Virus record (IMG/VR): IMGVR_UViG_3300029893_000001
Span: 186,001-250,000 of that record
Source: a virus
Strand: one strand, 5' to 3'
Length of the DNA: 64,000 nucleotides
Below the pieces are notes generated by a model. The model did no database searches. It saw only the letters and a program-made list of their open reading frames with translations, and was not told where the DNA came from. Both the position numbers and the translations under genes were made by a program. Below are positions 35,072-51,936 of the stretch, one piece after another. Every line of letters starts with the position of its first letter. Position 1 is the first letter of the stretch.

Positions 35072-35548
35072 TCAGAGTTGGACAAAGACTTCGTAGACGA
35101 ACCGGTCGGTCGGTGTCTTAAACTTCAGGGGAAAATTGGCGATGGCGAACAAGAACTTTAGACCAATCTCTGGATCTCCTGGAATAGGAGAATACACAAT
35201 CGTACCCAGCAAACAGAGAGAGCTTACAGCTCCTGTGGCCTCTCCGGGCTCAACAGAAGCTGTGAAGACAGGGCACGAAAAGCTCGCGAATGAGACACCG
35301 TCAATTGTATCCACCAAAGAACAGCCACCCGCAGTAGTGATTGCTTCCACGGGAGAGCCTAGTGGACCACAATAGCAGCCTGTCCGAGACGGGTCCGGAG
35401 TAATAGCCAGCGTAGGGTCGGCTGGGTCATGGCCGTTTGCACCTATTACAAACGTATCCACGGCAAAGCTCTTTCCCGTAGCCAGCATCTCCGCGATGCG
35501 GGCCTTCCCCTGATTTGTGATAAGAGCTAATGCTTCGATAGTAGGCAT
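35072..35548 (-). CDS. DUF3751-like fibre attachment protein (copy A)
   Basis: 158 residues. The N-terminus, LITNQGKARIAEMLATGKSF, with following GANGHDPADP, matches the layout of tail-collar fibre N-terminal domains (DUF3751-like). The C-terminus shares PGDPEIGLKFLFAIANFPL with the copy at 22857-23429. It immediately precedes the 1687-residue fibre, consistent with acting as its adaptor. A Cys-rich insertion (GCYCGPLG) at about 67-74 may be metal binding. ATG at 35548 sits 8 bases downstream of the AGG centred in an 18-bp palindrome. Confidence 0.55.
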   Translation of the reverse strand: MPTIEALALITNQGKARIAEMLATGKSFAVDTFVIGANGHDPADPTLAITPDPSRTGCYCGPLGSPVEAITTAGGCSLVDTIDGVSFASFSCPVFTASVEPGEATGAVSSLCLLGTIVYSPIPGDPEIGLKFLFAIANFPLKFKTPTDRFVYEVFVQL

Positions 35549-35605: not shown

Positions 35606-36802
35606 TTATGAGATTCGCTCCACACAATAGTCCGAAGTATCTACTCCAAACGTACCAGGTCCGGGGTAAGATGTGCCTGCTGTATCAGCAATTGAAGTAT
35701 CCCAGCGCACGTGGCCACCAGAAACCGTATCCCAGACTCGATTGCGATAGGTGAGAGAAACACCTCCACCTCCGGCAGAACCTTCAATCTCCACCGGAGT
35801 GTCAATTGGAGGATCAAAAATGATAGCACTGCGCGCTGCTCCCGTACCTCCGGAGGGAGTTGTCGCCGCTGGAAACGGAAAGCCGTAACTAGAATTGGTG
35901 CCAACAGGAACCCAAATATTACCCTTCTGATCGGTGATTACGTCTGGATAACTGCGTGCGCCAGACATGATTTTGACGATATCGGTCGAAGAGCCCAAAA
36001 CGAGTGAAGTCATGGCGTCAGACGTCTGTGTCAGTGGGATAACCCGCACCAGAACGTCCTCGCCTCCCTGAGGCATCACGGATACCGTTGCATCAGGTTC
36101 TGGAGTGCAGGCGCTGGCCCAATACCCCGCGCGCTCCGAAGCAAGGAAAGTGGCGCCATCTCGAAACCAAACACCATCAGTGTCGGGCCCGTCACCGTTC
36201 TCACATGACGAAAAGATCAAAGAACGAGACAAAGCGCCGGCCGAGGTGACCATTACCCAGCCAAATCCGGCTAATCCATTAACTTCAGAATCATGTACCC
36301 AAAAATGAACAAATCCATCGGTGTAGAAGCCAAAAATATCGTTGTCTGAAGACCTGGATCCAACGAGAAATTGTTCTCCAGACGCAGCACCTGGGATTGT
36401 ACTGTGGGCGGCTACACTGCCATCAAAGCCCCCTGACCTCGCATACGCAATCTTCCCATAGCCGTTCCAGCTAGACGCAGGCGTCTGGTCGGTATCGACA
36501 AAAAGTACCTCTCGCCCATTCCCATCCTGAAAAACGCACCATCCACCAGGTCCCCAATCTCCTGCACCACCAGCATCACCCCCGGTGGCAGTCTTAAGAC
36601 AGTCGTACGCACCTCCACTACCTTGGTCTGCGGGGTCAAGTGCTGCAGTGACTCCGCTGTAAGCGAAAGTTGTAGAGCCGTCTCCAGAGCCAATAACAGT
36701 CCAATGCCCCGAAGCAATCATCATCTCTTTGATTTCGAATAACGGAGCGCTAGCACGTACACCTGCCGCCTTCGCCCAGTTAACTGTGAAAACTCGTGCC
36801 AT
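35606..36802 (-). CDS. Adhesin-like protein (tandem paralogue of 36806-37831)
   Basis: 398 residues. The pattern GSGDGSTTFAYSGVTAALDPADQGSGG and NGYGKIAYAR, AHSTIPGAASGEQFL is shared almost verbatim with the next gene upstream, so the two are tandem duplicates. Phage receptor-binding or surface proteins of this type are usually rich in Gly/Ser/Trp as here. The C-terminal half (about 240-398) diverges. It starts at ATG 36802 after the upstream stop with a few bases between. Function inferred from composition; no enzyme site. Confidence 0.6.
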   Translation of the reverse strand: MARVFTVNWAKAAGVRASAPLFEIKEMMIASGHWTVIGSGDGSTTFAYSGVTAALDPADQGSGGAYDCLKTATGGDAGGAGDWGPGGWCVFQDGNGREVLFVDTDQTPASSWNGYGKIAYARSGGFDGSVAAHSTIPGAASGEQFLVGSRSSDNDIFGFYTDGFVHFWVHDSEVNGLAGFGWVMVTSAGALSRSLIFSSCENGDGPDTDGVWFRDGATFLASERAGYWASACTPEPDATVSVMPQGGEDVLVRVIPLTQTSDAMTSLVLGSSTDIVKIMSGARSYPDVITDQKGNIWVPVGTNSSYGFPFPAATTPSGGTGAARSAIIFDPPIDTPVEIEGSAGGGGVSLTYRNRVWDTVSGGHVRWDTSIADTAGTSYPGPGTFGVDTSDYCVERIS

Positions 36803-36805
36803 TTA

Positions 36806-37831
36806 TCACCTCGAAACCGGCAGCGGATCGGTTGTAGGCCAAGGCACACAATACCCAGCCTGGGTGCTAGAACCAGCGACAATAAAGCGCTCTTTTGTGC
36901 CCCCAGAACCGCGAGTAACAATCATCGGAGCATCAAGAAATGAAGACAGCCGCTTGTAACAACGCCCGGTCCAGCCTTTGTAATACTGGTCAGGAGCTGA
37001 CCCAATTCGAGCCAAAATAGATTTGATGCCGATTGTGTTGTCGGAGTTAAAAGCTCGTGTCGCGTTGTACCGGCAATCTTCTAACGTAACTGATTGCCAT
37101 ACCTGATTAGCCGTGGAGTATTGATTCCATGCTTGAACCGTAGTGAGACCGCTACTCCCGTATACAACAATCGCTGGATCATTATCCCAAGACGGGGCCT
37201 CGTGCACTGGACAAAAGATGACACCTCCAACACTTCGATTTTGAGGACCGATCCAAATAGCACCCCAACCAGCAACAGTACTCTCCAGTGCCTGGTCCGC
37301 AAACACGTGCACTGCTGCGCCTTGAAAAGTAATAACTTGAACCCCTGTTGATGTAGCTCGATTTCCAAAAATCCACTGCTCGTCTGTGGCCGCCCCAGGG
37401 ATAGTACTATGGCCGGCTGTGCTCCCATCAAAGAAAGCCGTGGCACCAAGCCCCGCGTTATACGCAATCCGACCGTATCCCCACCAACCACCTGAAGTCT
37501 GGTCAGTGTTGCAAAATAGCCATTCCCGTTGGCCCCCGACCTGCCGCAACACACACCACGCGCTGCTTTGAAAATACCCATTCTGCTTCACGGCTGTCTG
37601 TTCAAACTGCGGCGTCTTCAAGCAGTCGTAATCGCCACCTGAGCCTTGATCCGCAGGGTCAAGCGCCGCTGTTACACCGTTGTAGGCAAAGATCGAGTTT
37701 CCGTCACCAGACCCACGAACTTCCCACAACCCAGAATCTACCAAGGTCTCCTTAATATTCCACAGGAACCCACCCAGGTAACCATGGTTCTGATTCTGCT
37801 TGAGGATATTCGTCGTGAAAGAAAAGGCCAC
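36806..37831 (-). CDS. Adhesin-like protein (tandem paralogue of 35606-36802)
   Basis: 341 residues starting at GTG 37831 (AGGTGA upstream). The N-terminal half repeats the segments of its neighbour: SGDGNSIFAYNGVTAALDP, GQREWLFCNTDQT, GRIAYNAGL, STIPGAATDEQWI. Duplication followed by divergence is typical of phage surface proteins. C-terminal GCYKRLSSFLDAPM and other segments have no counterpart. Cys residues at about 121 and 131 are unpaired in the copy. Function unknown; a structural surface role is inferred. Confidence 0.6.
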   Translation of the reverse strand: MAFSFTTNILKQNQNHGYLGGFLWNIKETLVDSGLWEVRGSGDGNSIFAYNGVTAALDPADQGSGGDYDCLKTPQFEQTAVKQNGYFQSSAWCVLRQVGGQREWLFCNTDQTSGGWWGYGRIAYNAGLGATAFFDGSTAGHSTIPGAATDEQWIFGNRATSTGVQVITFQGAAVHVFADQALESTVAGWGAIWIGPQNRSVGGVIFCPVHEAPSWDNDPAIVVYGSSGLTTVQAWNQYSTANQVWQSVTLEDCRYNATRAFNSDNTIGIKSILARIGSAPDQYYKGWTGRCYKRLSSFLDAPMIVTRGSGGTKERFIVAGSSTQAGYCVPWPTTDPLPVSR

Positions 37832-38541: not shown

Positions 38542-40113
38542 TTAGAAGCCATCGAAAACCTGATCCGCGCTGTCAAAAACGTCGTCAAAAGCAGCAGAGT
38601 CCACAACCGCTTCTGAACCAGAACCTCCCGGAATCACATAATACCCCGCAGTGACCGTAGAAGTAATTGGAAGCTCCAAATCCCAGTAGCTAGCAACTGC
38701 CAAGGTAGCCTGGGGCCTAGAAAAGCAGCAGTCTAAATCTTCGAACAGAGAAACCTCAGGTACTGTCGAGTCAAGACAGTGTCCGCCGTCAAACCGGTCC
38801 ACAAGCGGCAAGCCATACCAACCGTCGGTCAGAGGATCCGCTTCTTCTGGGGAGTCTAGGGGAAGTCCACTATCGAATGCAATCGACCCCTCGTAACGAA
38901 CACTGACCGGCCTCCCAGGGTCCCCGTCGGGAAATACAATTCTCCTAGTCCCAGGAATGTGGAACGCAGCTACTATTCTTGAGCCCAACGGCTCGATTGT
39001 AGTAGCGGAGACTACTCTCTCGATCGGCGAAGAAACATCGAAGTAAGCAGCCCCCACCAATCCTGTCTCCGAACCTGTGGGGTCGAGAGACAAGGATCCT
39101 GCAGAAATAACTTCAGTGAGCGGAGCCAGACTGTCCAACCGCAAACGGCCTAAAGCCAGCTCAACAACTCGGTCAAACGGGTAGCGCCAGGCGCAAAACG
39201 CAAGTTCAGACTCCGTTGTCAGGACAACCGAAACTACAATTGGAAGACAATCCTGGCTGAGAAGTGAGGTGATGCTGCAGAAACCCGTCTCAAAATCAAA
39301 CGTGTGCGTTTCAGGTCGCCCCATGAAGTCTAGGCTGACTACCTCGTCGCTGACGGATGTAAGCTCCGCTATCGCCGGCTCTAGATTGTCCATCAACTTC
39401 ACAAACGCCGCCCACGTCCCAACGCAAATGTTAGGGATCCACACGTGGAAGGCGAATCCACCCTCATCATGAGCGGTAGAGTAAAGCGTCCTAGAATCCG
39501 GCTCGAAATACTCCAAATCAACGGTGGTGGGACGGACGACAGGTGTCGTATTCGACGCAGCAGTTGCTATGTCATCGACGCCGCGTGTCGACCCTGTCTC
39601 GTTAATCAATGAACGTACTGCCATTTTTCCAGCCAGGACACGCATAGCCCTTGTGGGAGGCAGCAACTCTTGGAATGCAATCTGATGTTCTGTCGCACGA
39701 AGCGACAGTTCACTGTTTAATTGGCGTTCTGCGTCCTCAAACTTCACGCCGACATTGAAGAAGAACTCTTGTGTATACCCGCGTAACAAGGTCGCATAGT
39801 TAGTTGCGACCACTAAGAGCAAATACGTCTCGTTACTAGTTCGAACTTGAATGAAGTTCTTGCCGGGGGCGAGGTTCAAATTCACCTGAGTTGACGGCTC
39901 AGAAAGAACTAGCGTCGTCACCAAAGTGTTGTTGTTGAAGACCTCGACAGTGTCTCCCGGATCCCCTTGGACCAAAAATGGGGTGGTATCCGATGACGAA
40001 AGCGGGAGGACTACTGGACCCTTATGCCATTGGGTACCCGCAGGAATACTGTCTAGGATTTCTTGGTAGAGATCCTCATACGCGTCAACATTGGGCGTGA
40101 TCCTCAGCGCCAT
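38542..40113 (-). CDS. Baseplate/tail protein downstream of gpJ-like gene
   Basis: 523 residues. N-terminus helical (YEDLYQEILDSIP), then beta domains with FNNNTLVTTLVLSEP and LNLAPGKNFIQVR; the middle carries helical segments (AERQLNSELSLRATEH) and the C-terminus a series of short strands. Position just after the Dps-like gene and the gpJ-like protein matches the tail-protein-I/gp53 position in other phages, so a wedge or fibre-connector role is reasonable. No direct sequence motif proves it. ATG 40113. Confidence 0.55.
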   Translation of the reverse strand: MALRITPNVDAYEDLYQEILDSIPAGTQWHKGPVVLPLSSSDTTPFLVQGDPGDTVEVFNNNTLVTTLVLSEPSTQVNLNLAPGKNFIQVRTSNETYLLLVVATNYATLLRGYTQEFFFNVGVKFEDAERQLNSELSLRATEHQIAFQELLPPTRAMRVLAGKMAVRSLINETGSTRGVDDIATAASNTTPVVRPTTVDLEYFEPDSRTLYSTAHDEGGFAFHVWIPNICVGTWAAFVKLMDNLEPAIAELTSVSDEVVSLDFMGRPETHTFDFETGFCSITSLLSQDCLPIVVSVVLTTESELAFCAWRYPFDRVVELALGRLRLDSLAPLTEVISAGSLSLDPTGSETGLVGAAYFDVSSPIERVVSATTIEPLGSRIVAAFHIPGTRRIVFPDGDPGRPVSVRYEGSIAFDSGLPLDSPEEADPLTDGWYGLPLVDRFDGGHCLDSTVPEVSLFEDLDCCFSRPQATLAVASYWDLELPITSTVTAGYYVIPGGSGSEAVVDSAAFDDVFDSADQVFDGF

Positions 40114-40118
40114 TTAAC

Positions 40119-40706
40119 TCACCTCGGAGGCCCAAAAACTAAGGCCGGAGGCGGCATGGGTAACGCCGAGAAAGGAGGTGGAGGAAGAGGGGCGCTGACT
40201 GGAGGAGACAGCGGAGCAGAACTTGGTCCTTCCATCTGCTGACTTCTGCGTTCAAGGAAGTACACTAACGTCTCCAGTTCGTTTGCTGTAGAAGCAAGGA
40301 GATCATCTAGACCATAGGTTAGGAATCCCTCGGTGCGCATCTTCGAGGACAGAGACCTAAGCTTTCGAGTCAGACGAAGAAGGTGTTCGTAGAAAAACGT
40401 AGCTGCTTGGTTTGCGTCCAAAAGGGCAGCCTTAAGCTCTGGCCCCAATTTCCTCATGCGCACGAACACATACTTTGCTTGCTGCACGGGATCTACGTAG
40501 CGCTCATCATCGAATTCAGAAAAGGCAGTCAGCCGTTCAGCCATCGGGTCTAACAGCTCGTCCAACTTCTCGTAGATTCGACCGAAAAGAAGATGATCGC
40601 TGTAACTTGTAGGCCCAAAGACACGCCAATGTGCAGTCTGCGCTGCCATCGACAGAAAGCGCAGCTCCCAGACAACGTTGGCAAGTACCTGAAGATTATG
40701 AGCCAT
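40119..40706 (-). CDS. Dps/ferritin-like protein inside the tail operon
   Basis: 195 residues. Residues 8-140 align without gaps, by eye, to E. coli Dps around its ferroxidase centre: H26 and H38 (AHWRVFG...DHLL), D53 and E57 (LLDPMAERL) fall exactly where H51, H63, D78 and E82 lie, but the position of D67 is G42. Near residue 115 DLLASTANELETLVYFLERR matches the final Dps helix. Dps-type proteins bind iron and oxidise it, or bind DNA, as a four-helix bundle. A proline-rich tail (150-195) is extra. It lies between a 94-residue disordered protein and a baseplate protein; ATG at 40706. Whether it oxidises iron or has become a structural four-helix protein is not known. Confidence 0.7.
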   Translation of the reverse strand: MAHNLQVLANVVWELRFLSMAAQTAHWRVFGPTSYSDHLLFGRIYEKLDELLDPMAERLTAFSEFDDERYVDPVQQAKYVFVRMRKLGPELKAALLDANQAATFFYEHLLRLTRKLRSLSSKMRTEGFLTYGLDDLLASTANELETLVYFLERRSQQMEGPSSAPLSPPVSAPLPPPPFSALPMPPPALVFGPPR

Positions 40707-40711
40707 GAAGA

Positions 40712-40996
40712 CTACCTCGGAACAGCTCTCGGCGGGATAACATTTTGGACAGAACGAAATTTTGACGTTCCACCTGTACCAGTACCCTTTTCAAGGTCGG
40801 AGACGTCCTTCACATAATGCCCTGGGCCTGTTCGTGAATCCCCTCCGGGGAGATCGTTCATAGGCCCAGACCACCGGTCCTCCTCAGGAAGAGCGCCAGA
40901 AGAGTCATGGGGCAAAGAATCCAAGCCAGGTCCGGGCCCCTCGTCAGGACGACTAATTCTATCAACCTTGTTGAAATCTAGAAATCGGTGGCTCAT
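40712..40996 (-). CDS. Disordered small protein
   Basis: 94 residues, rich in Gly, Pro, Asp and Ser with no hydrophobic core, probably disordered. Short LDFNKVDRI N-terminus and a basic C-terminal segment. The start ATG 40996 overlaps the stop of the gpJ-like gene (ATGA), and it ends five bases before the Dps-like gene. Small linker or assembly proteins are common in baseplate operons. Function unknown. Confidence 0.6.
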   Translation of the reverse strand: MSHRFLDFNKVDRISRPDEGPGPGLDSLPHDSSGALPEEDRWSGPMNDLPGGDSRTGPGHYVKDVSDLEKGTGTGGTSKFRSVQNVIPPRAVPR

Positions 40997-42393
40997 CTCC
41001 TCACCTCAATTGTGATAAGAGAATCGCTAGTCTCCGGGTACTCAAATGGGCGGAATTCAAGTGTTTCTACGGGAATGGTCCCCGTCAGATCACGCGTGAA
41101 CTCAAGAATAGAAATGTTTGAAACCCCAGCCACGTCAGCAGAAAGTTGCGACCTAAGGTCGTTAGCAAACAAGACCGAAATAAATTCAGTTCTGTTTATG
41201 AACGAGGACACCGAAGCAAATGCAGCACTAGCAGCCTCAGTTTCGTCAAAAGAGCTAAGAACCTGTACCAACACTCGTGCCCTAATAGGAACAGGAATTG
41301 CCTTTCGAACCAAAATGTCCGCTCTATAGAGTTGAACCCCTAGCCTGTTTACGTAATCTTGAGCGTCACGAATGAGCTTATCGTAAGTGTAAGTAATAGT
41401 GACCGTTTCGTTCAGCCCAGGAATGACGTCAAGCTCCACTCGGTCATTTGCTTGAGTAGAGGACCTATACTGAAACGTGCTGTCTGGAAGGAAACTAAAC
41501 CCAACGGGTGTACTCCCGACACGAACGCCCTGAACAGCTAAAGCTGGGGAGAGGGGAAGTCTAAAGGTCCGCTGAACAGCATTACCGACGTACGTTACCT
41601 CTGCCGTCTCGGTCACCGATCCAATGATGTAAACGTCCCAGGCTGACCGTCGGGTTCTACGCCTAAAGTTGTCAGTGTCGGTGCTGAAAATCATCTGAAC
41701 AGCGTCTATAGACGACGTATTGAACGATTCAACAAGTTGCTTTAGACCGTCACCCGAACCCAGCGCCAATCCATTGAATTTAGAACGAATGCGTGCACCG
41801 AAACGAGAAGCACTTTCGAATTCAGTACTACCAGAGATCCGTTCTCGGTTCACTACCCCGTCAATCCCTTGAACGGTAGATTGAACCCGAAGAATTCTAT
41901 TGGGAGGGACCTCAAACAAGGCACCCGCACCTAGTGCTTCGACAGGGACGCGCACCTCATACCGGCGGGCGGCAGCATTAAAAAATGCGCCTAGACTTGA
42001 ACCGAGGATGAAAGCGTCCCGTAAAGTCCTAAATGAAATCGTGGGATCTGAAGTGGAGACAACGGTACCTGCAGGTACGACGACAACCTCATCAGGTCCG
42101 GGAGCCTGATAAGTGTAGAAGGTTACATTCCCGCGCGCGGCCCTACCCAGCGACCGACGAAGCCCGTGATTTGCTCCGTATAGCTGAAGAACCGTCTCGT
42201 TCTGTGAGAGAACGTAGTCCAAGCTATATCTACGACTAAGGTCATCAAAAAGCAGTTCAACAGCACGAATTTGGGCAGCCTGAGGACGAATGAATATGTC
42301 AAAAACGGGGCCCTTAACCGTGTCAATGGAAGAGTCCTGCGTCTCAATTGCATCCGCTAAAGAAAGCTCAATCTGCCGTAAAGTCCGTGCCAT
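40993..42393 (-). CDS. Baseplate J-like protein
   Basis: 466 residues with the Baseplate_J pattern: GRAARGNVTFYT (about 84-95), VVVVPAGTVVSTSD (about 103-117), a Phe-containing strand FRTLRD, then NRERISGSTEFESASRFGARI (about 180-201), the GG/GS..E..ES..R.RI signature. Such proteins form baseplate wedges of contractile tails (P2 gpJ, T4 gp6 family). The C-terminal 130 residues carry another beta domain. ATG 42393 overlaps the stop of the gp25-like gene (TGATG). This is the clearest baseplate marker in the window. Confidence 0.85.
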   Translation of the reverse strand: MARTLRQIELSLADAIETQDSSIDTVKGPVFDIFIRPQAAQIRAVELLFDDLSRRYSLDYVLSQNETVLQLYGANHGLRRSLGRAARGNVTFYTYQAPGPDEVVVVPAGTVVSTSDPTISFRTLRDAFILGSSLGAFFNAAARRYEVRVPVEALGAGALFEVPPNRILRVQSTVQGIDGVVNRERISGSTEFESASRFGARIRSKFNGLALGSGDGLKQLVESFNTSSIDAVQMIFSTDTDNFRRRTRRSAWDVYIIGSVTETAEVTYVGNAVQRTFRLPLSPALAVQGVRVGSTPVGFSFLPDSTFQYRSSTQANDRVELDVIPGLNETVTITYTYDKLIRDAQDYVNRLGVQLYRADILVRKAIPVPIRARVLVQVLSSFDETEAASAAFASVSSFINRTEFISVLFANDLRSQLSADVAGVSNISILEFTRDLTGTIPVETLEFRPFEYPETSDSLITIEVRR

Positions 42394-42890
42394 CAGATTG
42401 CTCTAGTATCGTCCGTCACGATCGATCCAGGGAGATTTGGTTTAGCTCCGGGAAGAAATTGATGCCTGAGCTGGATGTAGAAGCTAGTAGGGATCACATC
42501 TGGTCCGTCGAATGGAGTAACATTGACGAAGAATATGTAACCCGTACGAGAGAACTGAATGACTCGAATCGTGCCAATCGACTGAATCGCCTCGAAAGAA
42601 GTCAACTGGTCTAAGCGCGTATTTTGAAGCTGCTGCAATCTCTCCAGCGCCTCACGGACTAAAGTCTTGATGTATCCTCTATTGATCAGCCCAAGAGGGC
42701 CCGAACGACGAGAATTAATCTGATCGAGATTAGAAATCTGAGACCCATAACCCCTCTCTGGGTCGTACTCTGTCATCAGCGCGTCAGGAACGTCCTGAGA
42801 TAGCTTCTCGATCCCTTGAATGTAGACCGGACGCCCGTTGCTAGATCGAATTACGATATCCCCATCTCGCTTCTTCAACGTCTTGGACAT
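42393..42890 (-). CDS. gp25-like baseplate wedge protein
   Basis: 165 residues. The segment MSKTLKKRDGDIVIRSSNG, QGIEKLSQDV and later YGSQISNLDQIN...IKTLVREALERL follows the lysozyme-like gp25/W wedge pattern: a strand with G-x-x-x-I, an early L-x-Q-D, a conserved YGS and an amphipathic helix. The pairing with the downstream J-like protein is the usual one. ATG 42890 overlaps the upstream TAA (TAATG); a longer form is unlikely. C-terminus beta-rich. Function: connecting baseplate wedge and sheath, by homology. Confidence 0.7.
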   Translation of the reverse strand: MSKTLKKRDGDIVIRSSNGRPVYIQGIEKLSQDVPDALMTEYDPERGYGSQISNLDQINSRRSGPLGLINRGYIKTLVREALERLQQLQNTRLDQLTSFEAIQSIGTIRVIQFSRTGYIFFVNVTPFDGPDVIPTSFYIQLRHQFLPGAKPNLPGSIVTDDTRAI

Positions 42891-43426
42891 TAATCGTACT
42901 CCACTAGAACGCGCACCCAAGAACGAAGTTCTTGGGTGAAGTCTCCCGAACCAGAAGCCTCGAAACGAGACGCCAGCACCGAGAGTGCCGCATAGTTAAA
43001 TGCATGTTTGTCTCGGGCTGAGATAATGTCTCCCATACTCTTGGTCATGGCTTCTTGAAGAAGAGTAGCCTCTGTTACATCTTCAAAACCATCCAAGGAA
43101 GAGGAAAGGTCCGAACGAACCTGATCGTAGTAATCCGCAAGTTGCTCATACATTCGCTGAGACTCTAGTTCATTTCGCTTTTCTTCCTCCAAATACTCCG
43201 TCAAAAGCTGATTGCGGACTTCAACTTGATTTGGGTCGTTATCCAGGATCACCTGAAAAAAGCTGGAAACAGAGCTTCTAACGGAAATGGGAGTAAGAAT
43301 CAGGTAGGCCTCAAACTCTGTAGAAATGCTCTCTTCCTGCCCTGATTGTGCGTTGAAAAACGTGGGCCTATCTTCCCGCACCGAGGAGGCGACAGTATCA
43401 GCTTCTTCTAGGGTTAGACGTCTCAT
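42890..43426 (-). CDS. Helical baseplate-operon protein
   Basis: 178 residues, mainly helical: 25-70 beta/helix mix, 75-140 long charged coiled-coil (LLTEYLEEEKRNELESQRMY) and a final helical segment. No family is recognised. It is translated just ahead of the gp25-like gene with TAATG coupling and follows the 612-residue gene by three bases, so it most likely belongs to the baseplate assembly set. Confidence 0.6.
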   Translation of the reverse strand: MRRLTLEEADTVASSVREDRPTFFNAQSGQEESISTEFEAYLILTPISVRSSVSSFFQVILDNDPNQVEVRNQLLTEYLEEEKRNELESQRMYEQLADYYDQVRSDLSSSLDGFEDVTEATLLQEAMTKSMGDIISARDKHAFNYAALSVLASRFEASGSGDFTQELRSWVRVLVEYD

Positions 43427-46354: not shown

Positions 46355-47497
46355 TCACTCCACAAAGCACTTTGTGCTTAGTACCTGAGTAAACCTTACT
46401 TCTACGTCAGAGGTAAGAAATTTTGCAGGACCAGTAGCAGTCAACACTACGGCGTCGCGTAGCCACTGACGCATGTCCTCACCTCTCATCATAGGGTCCT
46501 CTGCATTTCGTCCGGCCTTGATTCTCTGCGCCTCCAACTCAACCGTTTGTTCAGCGTCCACCAAAAAGTTACGGTCCACATTGTGGATCTCATCACGTCC
46601 AGCCGCCATTTTTATGTCTGTGCGGCTGACGCTGATGTTCAATCCGTAAGACGCATTGTCAGGAATGATCCAATTGACATTGCCCTCAACATCAACCTCG
46701 GTAATTGTTTCTTCCAGGCGTACTGTACCGTACACCGTACGGCTCCGGAGCTTTTTTCCAGTAATAGGCGAAGTTGGCTCTGTGCCGTCATTTGCCACAA
46801 CGTGGCCCTCCCGATGATCGATCAACGTGTAGGGAGGTGCTTTACTTGAAAGATGGCGCAGGTATTCTTTCGCAAAAACTTCATCACCGCCGTCTGGCGT
46901 AACACGAATCCACAACTGCTGGGGCTGATCTGTATCAGTGAATCGCTTCACCACACCAAAGCGCATCTCGTTAGAGATCTCTGAGACATTGTTATCCAAT
47001 GTGCGATGAACGATCGTAGGGGCCTTCGTGTTCGCCTCCAAATTCGGTACGTCAAGCGTATTCAAGATCGGACCACCACGTAGCGAAAGAGTGCCGTCTT
47101 GACCGAAATGCGCAGCAGCGAGACCCCTAGAAGTGATATCTATTTCGCTTTCCTGAAGTCGTCGATAGTAAAAACGGTTGTCCTCATACGTAGCTCGGAT
47201 GAAGTTCTCTGCCGCATCTTCAGCCATGTAAGCAGAAGTAAATGTCTCACCCGAATCCGAACGAGAATCCAAGATCATACGCGTGCTACGCTCAGGCATT
47301 ACGCGGATCCAGCTCGCTGGACCTAAATACGGGTGTGTAATTGGAACTGTTCGTCCGGCACGCGGGCCGGTGTAAGTAATCGTATCCGTCGCTGGATTTG
47401 TCGCTGTAGTAACAACACCATAAGGCCGTGTCGCATACTGCAACTCTGTTGCGTACAGGCGACGCCCATCACGAATAAAACGACCCGCCCCACTCAC
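46355..47497 (-). CDS. Spike-like baseplate protein
   Basis: 380 residues. N-terminal about 110 residues are OB-fold-like with strands; the C-terminal half contains tandem short strands (IKMAAGRDEIHNVDRNFLVDAEQ and similar) resembling the beta-helix of gp5/VgrG-type spikes, and the order hub-then-spike is usual. GTG 47497 overlaps the hub stop (GTGA). Residues 160-260 are charged. A cell-puncturing spike is the most likely role; no needle-tip PAAR gene is seen. Confidence 0.55.
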   Translation of the reverse strand: MSGAGRFIRDGRRLYATELQYATRPYGVVTTATNPATDTITYTGPRAGRTVPITHPYLGPASWIRVMPERSTRMILDSRSDSGETFTSAYMAEDAAENFIRATYEDNRFYYRRLQESEIDITSRGLAAAHFGQDGTLSLRGGPILNTLDVPNLEANTKAPTIVHRTLDNNVSEISNEMRFGVVKRFTDTDQPQQLWIRVTPDGGDEVFAKEYLRHLSSKAPPYTLIDHREGHVVANDGTEPTSPITGKKLRSRTVYGTVRLEETITEVDVEGNVNWIIPDNASYGLNISVSRTDIKMAAGRDEIHNVDRNFLVDAEQTVELEAQRIKAGRNAEDPMMRGEDMRQWLRDAVVLTATGPAKFLTSDVEVRFTQVLSTKCFVE

Positions 47498-50400
47498 GAT
47501 GAACGTCTCCTTGCTGCTTCAGCAGTTTCTCGTGTCAAACGACGACGGTTTGGAAGCGGCTCGCCAGCCTGTCGAGGAATACTACCCTCATACCTTTCAG
47601 GTGGGCACGTATTGGGAGGCACCTCATTCGCAAAGATAGCAACTTGCTGGTTTCTGGAGGTGGTGTAAGCCGCAGCGCGTGCAGCCAAGCGCTCATTTCG
47701 AGCAATGATTGCACTTCGCTCCTGTTCCAGCCTACGGCGTCGTCTATCAGACACCCCGGAGGGGATCTCAGGAACAGGATCTGGAGCGAAGCGTGTGGGC
47801 TCGGCCGCCATCCTCAACGCTGGGATCCCCTTGAGACCAAACTGATCGTAATATTCTTGAAGAGAGATGACGTCAGAATCGGGTCCTGGGCGCCCCACAG
47901 TCTCTGCACGCGAAAAAGGTTCGCTGTTAGGGATGGGGTTGTAGAACAATACGAGGCGTGCGCCCAGCCCCAATGAACCATCACGCATACGTAAAAATCC
48001 TAAGTTGAATCGAGAAACGAGTTCTGGGTCCCAACGGGTCAAGAATTGAGCAAACTCGTCTCCAACACCACAGACCACTCTCATGCTTCCCTGAGTTCTA
48101 GCGCGCTCCGTAGCATCTGCCGCGGGTGTAGTCCCTGCGCGCCGCCGTTCTGCTGCAGTAACCACACGGAACTGTTTTCCTTCTCCAACGTAGCGCTGAA
48201 AAGCCGCTGACCCGAAGATCGCACCCGTTTCAAAGTGCAAATGAGTCTGAGTTTCTCGCTGTTCTGTCCCAGAAAACCCTGTATATGACACGATTTGATT
48301 TCGCTTCACCGTGGCGCCCAGCTCTACACCATCTGCAAGCCTGTTCTGATGCCGATAAAAGGTGACGAAACCATCTGCATGAATAAGACCCAACGACATT
48401 CCCTGACCAGGACGACCATTACGAGCTACCGACGGATGTGTGTAGAAGACAATACCATCGGCAACAGCGTAGCACGGCTCATCCAAATCCATAGGAATGT
48501 CGACACCAGGGTGCCAACCTCCCCCGCGAAGGCCAAAACCTGAGGTAACAATCCTGGGGAATTCGCCGGCAAACTGCCAGGTCCCTACACCACGATCAAT
48601 TTCTTCGTCAGGCAGTTGCCCGCGAGCATATCGATCAAGAATTGACCTACGTTCTCTACCTCCGGGTAGAGATCTCTTCCATGCCGCCCATCTGGGAACA
48701 GTCCTAACCGAGGGCCCCGTCGGAGCACTAAAGAAGCGTGGGTCTCCGGGGGAACACGTTGGTTCTTCGGAAGCCTCAGGGGGGTCGGCCGGCTCGACAT
48801 CATCAGACGGAGTAAGTGTCGACCGTACTCCTGTAACCCCTACACGGGGTCGCGCACCAGCCGGAGTATGAGTAGCCGAGGAGTCAAGTCCTCGCTCCCG
48901 TAGTGTTGCTTCCAGCTCTTCTACACGAGCACGAACTGCGTCCAAACGAGATGCTCGTTCTTCTTCAGTCAACGCGCCAGCGTTGCGAGTCAGTTCATCT
49001 AGCTCAGCCTCAAGCGCTCTGAGTTCTGTGACGACTGAGTCTTCCTCTCCTTCAGGACGCGAGGGAGCCCCCGAAAAAGCGGCGTCAATTACGTTGTACG
49101 TCGCCTGCCCATTTGGAATGATTGCGCGGTAGCGATCTTGAAGGGCCTGAAACTCCTGCTCCGTAAGAGACCTACCGTCGGTTCGGATCGTTCGGATCGC
49201 AGATTCGAAATCTCGCACTCTCTGCTGCAGAGACTGCACAACCGAGCGTCGTGGGTCCGCAGGAATGGCAAAGTACATAGGATGGGCAGGCCCACCTGTG
49301 ATGTAACGAGGAATACCAAGTTCGTCGTATGATCTAGTGTAGTTCAAAGTAATATTCATGGACGGAGGCTGCTGCCCGGCAATTTGCCCCGCCGTGACAG
49401 GAAGTGTCCAAGACAATCCGTCAACCAACGCAATTCTCTCTCTGTAGAGATTAAAAATGGGGCGGTTCAAAGTCAACCAAGGACGAAAAACCACACCAAG
49501 TTGATACCGGTCCGCAGCAGCCAAGAGCTTTTGGAACTCCAAAGTCGCTACCTGCTCCAACCTAGAAACATCTGTGATCTGTGGGTACGTAAGCACCTTG
49601 ACATTTAGTCCCAGACGAGATGCCAAATTTGGCGACCAGATGCCAACAGATCTGTCGGGATTGAGTGGCGTTATCTGTCCCTCATCAATATTCCCAATAC
49701 CAACGAACGAACCGTTTGCAAGGACAGCAGTAACTACCTCACCGCCTTCCTCGTCCATGCTTTCGTTTGTCAGATGATGATCCAGAGTAAGAATCTCAGA
49801 CCATGCTCCGTAATCCTCAGGGGCAAAGTCATACTGAGCGAATTCGAAAATCAGGTCACCACATCCAGAAACCCAGAATCTGTAGTCCGCAGTTTCACAT
49901 GCGTCAGTGAGGAGTTGTAGACGATTGGTCCAGTTAAGGTTGGCTGCAACATTGCCTGCACCGACTACTTCAATCGTCCACAAAAGGTCGTTCGGCGTAT
50001 TACGACCAGGAGACAAGAAATGAACTGCTTGTGCTTCTGGATGCCAAGCGCCTTCACGTCGTGTACTACGACCTGCTTCATGTACCTCTGCCTCTGTCCA
50101 GTATCTGCGGTTGCCGATGGAATGGTCTGGTGGTGCGTCCTCCACCAAAAGCCCCGCCCCTGAAGAAGGAGTGAAGTTATGACGACGAGGAGTACCAAAG
50201 ACACAGAGACTATACCAGTTCTGCATCCGTTGCTGGATCTGTCTGTTGGTGACAGCTCGACTAGCGCCGCGAGCAGCCGAAGGAAAATACGTCTCTAGAG
50301 CATAAGGCCTAGGTGGGTCGCCAAAGAGAGAGCCAAAGAAAGGAAATACACCAGGACGCATTCGACCAATCCGTCCTGCACCGCGGTGAACGGCTACTTC

Positions 50401-51936
50401 CCGTGACGTTCGAGCCGGGTCTACGGTAGACCCCTGCTGGGCGCCCGGCGGCGGCTGGGGAGCCGACGGATCCTCAGCCTCATCCTCTTCGACGGAGGTT
50501 CCTTGAAAGCTGCCCCTAGCGACATTAGCGGCTGCACTAGGTTCGACTCCGTAGCCCCTCAGAACTACCAACAGTTGTCTATACCGAGACCTTTCTGACT
50601 CAGAGAGAGTTGCTTCTCCACCCTCCTGCACTCGGCGGTGAAGAGGCTCAAACTCTGCTGCAGCGGCTCGAAGCTCTTCCTGTGCGGCCGACCTAGCCGT
50701 AGATCTTCCTCGAAACGCCCGATCTGCAGAAGCCTGCAGCAGCGAACCAGAAGTACTAGGCAAAAACGTGAGAGCGGAAATGAGTTCCGGAAGATTCAAA
50801 CTAGACCACGGGTTTGAGAGGCTTGAACCCGCGACCAAATCTGCGAAGAAGCCAGTGTTAAATTGACGATTGCCCTGCTCGGTATACGTCCTAAATACCT
50901 GAATCCCTGAAATAGGGCTCTCGTTTGTTGGGTCGGCTGCTGCAGTTGTCTGTGACCCAGGAAGGACCGCGAACATTGTGTTCGTGTTCACGCGCATCTT
51001 CGACATCAGAAGGCGAATATCAGCGCATGAGACAGAAATCGTGTTCAGGCCGTCAATATAGTTCTCTGTTACTGGCTTAGAAACAATGAATCCGGTGAAG
51101 ACAGGGATCCATTCGTCCAACTCAGACGCAGGGTTATGGATCCAAACGCGCACTGCGTCGTGTTTGTGAAAGACGGTACTCCATAAATGCAGGGGAAATC
51201 TCCGACCTCCTGAATCTGGGTCCACCGGATTGTAGTCCTCACGGCTTTTTCGTGAGTACATGTTGTACTTGACAGTCTCGTCGTAATCGAATGCGTTACC
51301 ACTACCCAGAGGAGAAGCCGTACGGAACTGTCCCTGCAAATTCTCTGGAGTAATAGTGAAACGATGCCCCGCATTGTCGAGCGTGAAGTCACACTTGTTG
51401 TAGTCCGTACCGAATCCATAGGTTACGGAAATCGTGCCGGTCAAAAACGGGGTAACATCCTCACCTTCGATGTATACGACTGCATCGTGATAGAAAACCT
51501 GATGAGGTCTCTCCACGAAGTAGTGCGGAGCGCTCCCACCGCGCACAGTCGGATCTGCCTCGCGTGATGCTGTGAGATCTGCCGAATCGCGTCGGACGTC
51601 ATCACCCTCAGATACGCGCGAAGAACTATCACTACCTACCTCGTCAGGAGAACGACGAGGGTCAGGAGCGCGCCCGTCCGACCCTTCTTCGTTGCCGGAC
51701 GAGTTAATGATCGATGAAGCAAGAGACTGCGCCTGCTCCCTCTCTTGTCGAGGAGTCGTTCCGTCTGCAGTCTGAGTGGTATCTACAACGGAGGGAGGAC
51801 TAAGAACACCATCAACAGGATCGGAGGGTACCTGCTCAATAACCTCAGGAGACCTAATAATGGCTTCGCCAGGTTCCGGGAGAAACCTGGCCTGACCTCC
51901 GCCGATTCTTCGATTGCTATCGCCGCCACCAGGCAT
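47494..51936 (-). CDS. Tail hub protein with M23 peptidase domain
   Basis: 1480 residues. Residues 1-135 are low-complexity and acidic. Residues 137-330 show a gpD/gp27-like hub domain (YIEGEDVTPFLTGTISV, FTGFIVSKPVTENY, INTISVSCADIRL). A long central part includes coiled coil (about 950-1010) and Pro-rich linkers. An M23 peptidase lies around 1120-1260: H1142 and D1146 in HPGVDIP, then H1232-L-H1234 in HLHFE, the zinc ligands of LytM/lysostaphin-type endopeptidases that cut peptidoglycan crosslinks. Domain fusion to a tail hub suggests local cell-wall digestion during injection. The C-terminus is helical. ATG at 51936. Confidence 0.8.
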   Translation of the reverse strand: MPGGGDSNRRIGGGQARFLPEPGEAIIRSPEVIEQVPSDPVDGVLSPPSVVDTTQTADGTTPRQEREQAQSLASSIINSSGNEEGSDGRAPDPRRSPDEVGSDSSSRVSEGDDVRRDSADLTASREADPTVRGGSAPHYFVERPHQVFYHDAVVYIEGEDVTPFLTGTISVTYGFGTDYNKCDFTLDNAGHRFTITPENLQGQFRTASPLGSGNAFDYDETVKYNMYSRKSREDYNPVDPDSGGRRFPLHLWSTVFHKHDAVRVWIHNPASELDEWIPVFTGFIVSKPVTENYIDGLNTISVSCADIRLLMSKMRVNTNTMFAVLPGSQTTAAADPTNESPISGIQVFRTYTEQGNRQFNTGFFADLVAGSSLSNPWSSLNLPELISALTFLPSTSGSLLQASADRAFRGRSTARSAAQEELRAAAAEFEPLHRRVQEGGEATLSESERSRYRQLLVVLRGYGVEPSAAANVARGSFQGTSVEEDEAEDPSAPQPPPGAQQGSTVDPARTSREVAVHRGAGRIGRMRPGVFPFFGSLFGDPPRPYALETYFPSAARGASRAVTNRQIQQRMQNWYSLCVFGTPRRHNFTPSSGAGLLVEDAPPDHSIGNRRYWTEAEVHEAGRSTRREGAWHPEAQAVHFLSPGRNTPNDLLWTIEVVGAGNVAANLNWTNRLQLLTDACETADYRFWVSGCGDLIFEFAQYDFAPEDYGAWSEILTLDHHLTNESMDEEGGEVVTAVLANGSFVGIGNIDEGQITPLNPDRSVGIWSPNLASRLGLNVKVLTYPQITDVSRLEQVATLEFQKLLAAADRYQLGVVFRPWLTLNRPIFNLYRERIALVDGLSWTLPVTAGQIAGQQPPSMNITLNYTRSYDELGIPRYITGGPAHPMYFAIPADPRRSVVQSLQQRVRDFESAIRTIRTDGRSLTEQEFQALQDRYRAIIPNGQATYNVIDAAFSGAPSRPEGEEDSVVTELRALEAELDELTRNAGALTEEERASRLDAVRARVEELEATLRERGLDSSATHTPAGARPRVGVTGVRSTLTPSDDVEPADPPEASEEPTCSPGDPRFFSAPTGPSVRTVPRWAAWKRSLPGGRERRSILDRYARGQLPDEEIDRGVGTWQFAGEFPRIVTSGFGLRGGGWHPGVDIPMDLDEPCYAVADGIVFYTHPSVARNGRPGQGMSLGLIHADGFVTFYRHQNRLADGVELGATVKRNQIVSYTGFSGTEQRETQTHLHFETGAIFGSAAFQRYVGEGKQFRVVTAAERRRAGTTPAADATERARTQGSMRVVCGVGDEFAQFLTRWDPELVSRFNLGFLRMRDGSLGLGARLVLFYNPIPNSEPFSRAETVGRPGPDSDVISLQEYYDQFGLKGIPALRMAAEPTRFAPDPVPEIPSGVSDRRRRRLEQERSAIIARNERLAARAAAYTTSRNQQVAIFANEVPPNTCPPERYEGSIPRQAGEPLPNRRRLTRETAEAARRRSS

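Follow-up and report, generated by a model that had tools for sequence, protein, structure and literature searches.

A Dps-type mini-ferritin gene at a fixed place in the baseplate operon of one lineage of uncultured phages

The window analyzed here, a stretch of 64,000 nucleotides, comes from an uncultured virus whose record spans 392 kb. In the tail region of the window, a 195-residue open reading frame on the minus strand encodes a protein resembling the Dps mini-ferritins, and a search of the record with the protein's own sequence returned one copy of the gene. The initial annotation had placed this frame at 40119-40706, which proved exact; on the plus strand, the same interval contains stops. 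It had also described tight spacing between baseplate genes, and the gaps to the upstream 94-aa gene and to the downstream 523-aa gene are 5 bases each. The features of the locus, from upstream to downstream, are as follows.

42393..42920, minus strand: sheath-initiator/gp25-like gene (phrog_2669, 0.011; PF10934, 0.063; position before Baseplate_J)
40993..42393, minus strand: Baseplate_J / T4 gp6-type wedge protein (PF04865, 3.6e-13; phrog_6, 8.3e-23)
40712..40996, minus strand: 94-aa Gly/Pro-rich gene, which always adjoins the Dps-like gene in the clade described below
40715..40718, minus strand: GAGG motif resembling a ribosome binding site for the Dps-like gene, within the 3' end of the 94-aa gene and 8 bases ahead of the Dps-like ATG
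40119..40706, minus strand: Dps-like mini-ferritin gene, 195 aa (open reading frame, phrog_3636, profile match to Dps in the PDB, AlphaFold2 model, Foldseek)
40122..40232, minus strand: Pro-rich C-terminal tail of the Dps-like protein (from its sequence)
40122..40125, minus strand: GAGG motif for the 523-aa gene that follows, within the last codons of the Dps-like gene
38542..40113, minus strand: 523-aa gene after the Dps-like gene, presumed baseplate wedge protein (gpI/gp7 position; conserved synteny)
35072..35548, minus strand: tail-collar fiber N-terminal-like gene (PF12571, 0.0029, below the cut-off)

Both the sheath-initiator name and the collar name are based on weak matches. The 523-aa protein gave no family match in PHROG and Pfam searches, and naming it from an AlphaFold2 model was abandoned as the model was too poor (pLDDT = 48); it is presumed from its position only to be a baseplate wedge protein. 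In the operon stretch, no promoter- or terminator-like signals rose above the chance level.

The Dps-like protein was matched by phrog_3636 (2.2e-9) and, in a single-sequence phmmer search, matched Deinococcus Dps2 at 1.6e-5. When a family profile built from 52 phage sequences was searched against the PDB, the best match was Bacillus anthracis Dlp-1 (7.6e-14), covering helices A-D (profile positions 17-153). At ≤ 0.001, the profile matched 69 distinct PDB sequences; the matched entries listed were Dps or Dps-type, besides chimeras on a Dps scaffold. The Pfam Ferritin model (PF00210) was matched by 33/52 relatives and DUF5856 (PF19174) by 39/52, at 0.01 or better. The window protein reaches neither model, its DUF5856 score of 17.0 bits being under the curated cut-off of 34.6. 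No mention of DUF5856 was found in the open-access literature.

An AlphaFold2 model calculated from the family alignment presented a Dps-type helical bundle (pLDDT = 91.8) with helices at residues 2-28, 34-62, 73-95, 98-125 and 131-158. In a Foldseek search of the PDB, the 50 matches listed were all Dps, with a probability of 1.00, TM-scores on the target of up to 0.77 and modest E-values of about 1e-3; the best viral match was also annotated as Dps. The 23-residue helix at 73-95 sits between helices B and C in the model and is longer than the BC helix of Dps. Doubt would have attached to the assignment had the predicted structure lacked a four-helix bundle or had the relatives proved unrelated to Dps; the predicted fold is a bundle of the Dps type and the relatives lead by profile to Dps structures. 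Judged by profile and model, the protein is a true, though divergent, Dps relative with a Dps fold. Like the bacterial proteins Dlp-1 (1ji5), Deinococcus radiodurans Dps2 (2c2j) and Pseudomonas aeruginosa PA0962 (8ff9), it combines this predicted fold and the profile match over helices A-D with H-H-D-E ligand spacing and an adjacent Trp. Unlike them, it lacks the Asp/Glu67 carboxylate and has a long helix between B and C and a Pro-rich but no basic tail, and its gene lies in a phage baseplate operon.

The metal site was considered by homology, with the assignment of ligands to sites A and B taken from PMC10002758 and PMC6675082. The relevant codons of the Dps-like gene are listed here.

40629..40631, minus strand: codon of His26, by homology a metal ligand of site A; present in 79/79 sequences
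40593..40595, minus strand: codon of His38, by homology a ligand of site B; present in 79/79 sequences, an invariance that is partly built in because H38 falls within a peptide pattern used to fetch relatives
40581..40583, minus strand: codon of Gly42, where E. coli Dps has Asp67, the carboxylate of site B
40548..40550, minus strand: codon of Asp53, by homology a site-A ligand contributed by the partner subunit; present in 79/79 sequences
40536..40538, minus strand: codon of Glu57, by homology a bridging ligand; present in 79/79 sequences

None of the peptide patterns in the main relative search covers H26, D53 or E57, and W27, next to the site-A His, is also kept in 79/79 sequences. The spacing of H26, H38, G42, D53 and E57 (12, 4, 11, 4) equals the one between Dps residues numbered 51/63/67/78/82 (PMC6675082). 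The residues are those given in the initial annotation, and the matches to phrog_3636, Dps2 and Dlp-1 put the likeness to Dps well beyond chance. In P. aeruginosa Dps, two irons are held by H37, D64 and E68 and by H49 and E68 (PMC10002758), which correspond to H26, D53 and E57 and to H38 and E57 here.

The glycine that had been noticed at one Asp position is Gly42, so that the canonical Asp/Glu67 carboxylate, which works at site B via a water (PMC6675082), is absent from the window protein. In the six phages of the window clade, the position is occupied only by Gly (three), Lys (two) or Arg (one); outside the clade, it is mostly Glu or Gln, and also Asp. Gly42 fits this clade pattern and does not by itself exclude iron chemistry, since Nostoc Dps4, with Asn67, still oxidizes iron with O2, though with an extra His ligand present (PMC6675082). 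The clade-wide Gly, Lys or Arg suggests a shift from fast di-iron ferroxidase chemistry to a mainly site-A metal site. H26, H38, D53 and E57 are invariant in the clade although pairwise identity drops to 37-63%.

At position 144, His is near-invariant in most other phage relatives (66/79), where it precedes the conserved helix-D Glu and might serve that group as an additional metal ligand. Loss of a conserved His144 by the window clade was considered and rejected, as Leu is also found in Dlp-1 and Salmonella phage SE131; a gain by the other phage group is more likely from these sequences.

Loci of the window clade were found by searches with Baseplate_J and with the 523-aa protein, and by a search with the Dps alignment. 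Five further distinct phages were identified (L014, L015, L099/L104, L100 and the near pair L102/L103), all of them uncultured. The gene order in 6/6 distinct phages is Baseplate_J, a 70-94-aa gene, the Dps-like gene, a gene of ~490-524 aa, and collar and fiber genes. Thus the position between baseplate genes described for the window is conserved, and every member of this tail lineage that was found has the Dps-like gene at this fixed place, with a spacing to both neighbors of -4 to +6 bases, overlaps included. Identity to L014 and L015 is 64% and 58% for the Dps-like protein and 70% and 60% for the product of the next gene; the Dps-like gene is nearly as well kept as its neighbors. Between L102 and L103, it differs by 23 synonymous and 3 amino-acid-changing codons and is therefore under purifying selection. 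The Dps tree joins the sequences of the window clade into one group (96/77; recovered in 97% of bootstrap trees, with the bootstrap not fully settled), and a long stem branch leads to it.

G007 (L013, L095), a more distant relative of this tail lineage, has Baseplate_J, an 80-aa ORF and a 444-aa gene corresponding to the 523-aa one, but no Dps gene between them. Its Dps gene lies beyond the fiber genes, ~12 kb from Baseplate_J. The small Gly/Pro-rich gene between Baseplate_J and the Dps-like gene is found in 6/6 clade phages and its product is probably disordered; the 80-aa ORF (L095 11167-11409) occupies its place in the distant relative.

The proline-rich tail pointed out in the initial annotation exists, though among clade relatives a similar one occurs only in L014. 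Absent from L015, L099, L100 and L103, it was dropped as a functional hallmark. The window protein is acidic (pI 6.1; clade range 4.9-6.3) and has no basic (Lys/Arg-rich) terminal tail, the DNA-binding feature of some Dps proteins only. DNA binding by such a tail is therefore unlikely, and the earlier suggestion of DNA protection, if by the E. coli mechanism, is the less supported for it.

With the window protein as the sole query sequence, a search of viral contigs gave no match; relatives were reached via a distant homolog and then by alignment. They are encoded in 173 viral-contig stretches, 80 of which were kept. Genome contigs of 84,980 species yielded 2 stretches with relatives, in a scan that used fewer patterns than the viral one. 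In other lineages, the genes near the Dps-like gene include terminase (15 loci, mostly 1.2-2 kb downstream), portal (12) and tail sheath (11, about 3-4 kb downstream). A gene for terminase, portal, sheath or another virion protein is present in the fetched stretch of 26/72 distinct loci, a proportion without a baseline for comparison that is suggestive only of a family often found among head or tail genes. The Dps genes of Salmonella phage SE131 and Aeromonas phage LAh_9 lie among nucleotide-metabolism genes, and some family members are near ThyX, PhoH or anaerobic ribonucleotide reductase genes. Since the gene elsewhere is near terminase, portal, sheath, GroEL or DNA-metabolism genes, the baseplate position is specific to the window clade. 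That all family members are baseplate proteins was considered and rejected: Baseplate_J adjoins the gene only in the window clade, and in other records with a Baseplate_J match, it is tens of kilobases or more away, with the exception of L013 (~12 kb).

Some members of the family are fused to other domains. The Dps-like domain occurs within long multidomain proteins, with InPase or DUF5661 domains, in L032, L033, L042, L073 and L090. The BFVD entries A0A6J7WIS1 and A0A6J5LAB8 also hold a Dps-like domain in longer proteins, annotated as prohead protease or ParB/sulfiredoxin.

The reading favored here, at a probability of roughly 0.4, is that a late-made protein of Dps fold, with a metal at its dimer interface, joins the baseplate. 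Expression would come late and be timed with that of the baseplate wedge proteins, and the subunits would associate, as in Dps, into dimers or larger assemblies. Iron or some other divalent ion would be bound at the dimer interface, and the protein would attach to the baseplate as a metal-stabilized structural element that may also carry iron. The operon position, the tight coupling to its neighbors and the change at position 42 are the reasons for this preference. A baseplate role is not needed for the family as a whole, because members elsewhere are found at terminase, GroEL and DNA-metabolism genes. Against such a role, the place in the operon may reflect expression timing only, and the arrangement in G007/L013, with the Dps gene beyond the fibers and none between the wedge genes, also speaks against it.

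Close behind, and nearly as likely, is a soluble Dps-type cage, made late, that oxidizes and stores iron or removes peroxide and guards the phage DNA or the host until lysis; its gene would be in the baseplate operon only for late expression. The minimal ferroxidase ligands and the Trp are invariant across 79 sequences (for H38, partly by construction), and a Dps with a non-carboxylate at position 67 can still oxidize iron, as Nostoc Dps4 demonstrates with Asn67 and its extra His ligand (PMC6675082). Family members in non-tail places, including those near ThyX, PhoH and anaerobic ribonucleotide reductase genes, are consistent with a cage of this kind, and the published phage Dps proteins have been read in this way (PMC8008677, PMC6669764). 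It accounts less well for the strict fixation between wedge genes in six phages and for Gly, Lys or Arg at the site-B carboxylate in the whole clade, and the acidic pI and lack of a basic DNA-binding tail count against it as well. Even if the protein is only a soluble scavenger, a Dps gene is retained by large phages as a fixture of their tail operon.

It is distinctly unlikely that the protein is a purely structural helical bundle of the baseplate which has given up metal chemistry. The site-B carboxylate is lost, and the Lys or Arg in 3/6 clade members could replace the charge of the metal; the long stem branch of the clade and the 23-residue helix between helices B and C also fit a structural part. 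However, H26, H38, D53 and E57 would not be expected to stay invariant at a pairwise identity of 37-63% if the metal had been abandoned. An assembly factor or chaperone for the neighboring wedge protein, absent from the finished tail, is highly improbable: the start/stop overlaps with neighbor genes and the GroEL genes near seven other-lineage loci lean toward it, but the protein has no chaperone similarity and such a role has no need of conserved metal ligands. The GroEL genes in question are phage-encoded and were observed near the Dps-like gene in L038, L002, L025, L020, L044, L071 and L083.

Phage-encoded Dps-type proteins are already known from PHROG 3636, Salmonella phages 7-11 and SE131, and Aeromonas phages LAh_6, LAh_8 and LAh_9, as well as from Lactobacillus phage Semele and the Gratiaviridae (PMC8008677, PMC6669764). 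The window protein resembles them in being of this type, and they are only distantly similar to it. Those of Lactobacillus phages and gut Gratiaviridae were interpreted as oxidative-stress proteins (PMC6669764, PMC8008677). Unlike the window gene, the Dps genes of SE131, LAh_9 and Lactobacillus phages are in or near DNA-metabolism regions and not between baseplate genes. A report on 'DPs' of phage 7-7-1 was set aside, as it concerns capsid proteins and not Dps. In the Vi01-like phage Sajous1, the gene for the ferritin-like gp217 and a tail completion gene have been proposed to share an operon, and gp217 was detected by mass spectrometry of the phage (PMC10892097). The window gene is similar in having a ferritin-like product and lying beside a tail gene, a likeness by description, gp217 having been assigned by Phyre2 only. 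A Ferrojan horse reading was given to gp217, and infection was independent of host TonB or FeoB (PMC10892097).

The initial remark that such a placement is not described stands in so far as the open-access literature yielded no account of a Dps gene located between the wedge genes of a baseplate; it does not extend to phage Dps proteins or to Sajous1 gp217, both of which are published. The present case adds to these a mini-ferritin as a fixed baseplate-operon gene of one lineage. Iron in phage tails is an open question, as reflected in the Ferrojan horse hypothesis and the HxH iron sites of the T4 tail fiber (PMC11705849), and a lineage-wide mini-ferritin between baseplate genes provides a concrete protein and concrete residues with which to test it. 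The broader proposal, in which a Dps-type mini-ferritin has become a built-in, metal-loaded baseplate part of the contractile tails in one lineage of large phages and brings iron to the surface of the host during infection, is unlikely; if true, it would be a protein-based form of the Ferrojan horse idea.

Two further observations concern the tail region of the window. The adjoining genes at 36806-37831 and 35606-36802, both on the minus strand, are paralogs with 43% identity over 197 aa. A 1480-aa protein encoded at 47494-51936 on the minus strand has a peptidase/endolysin-like domain at approximately residues 1129-1237.
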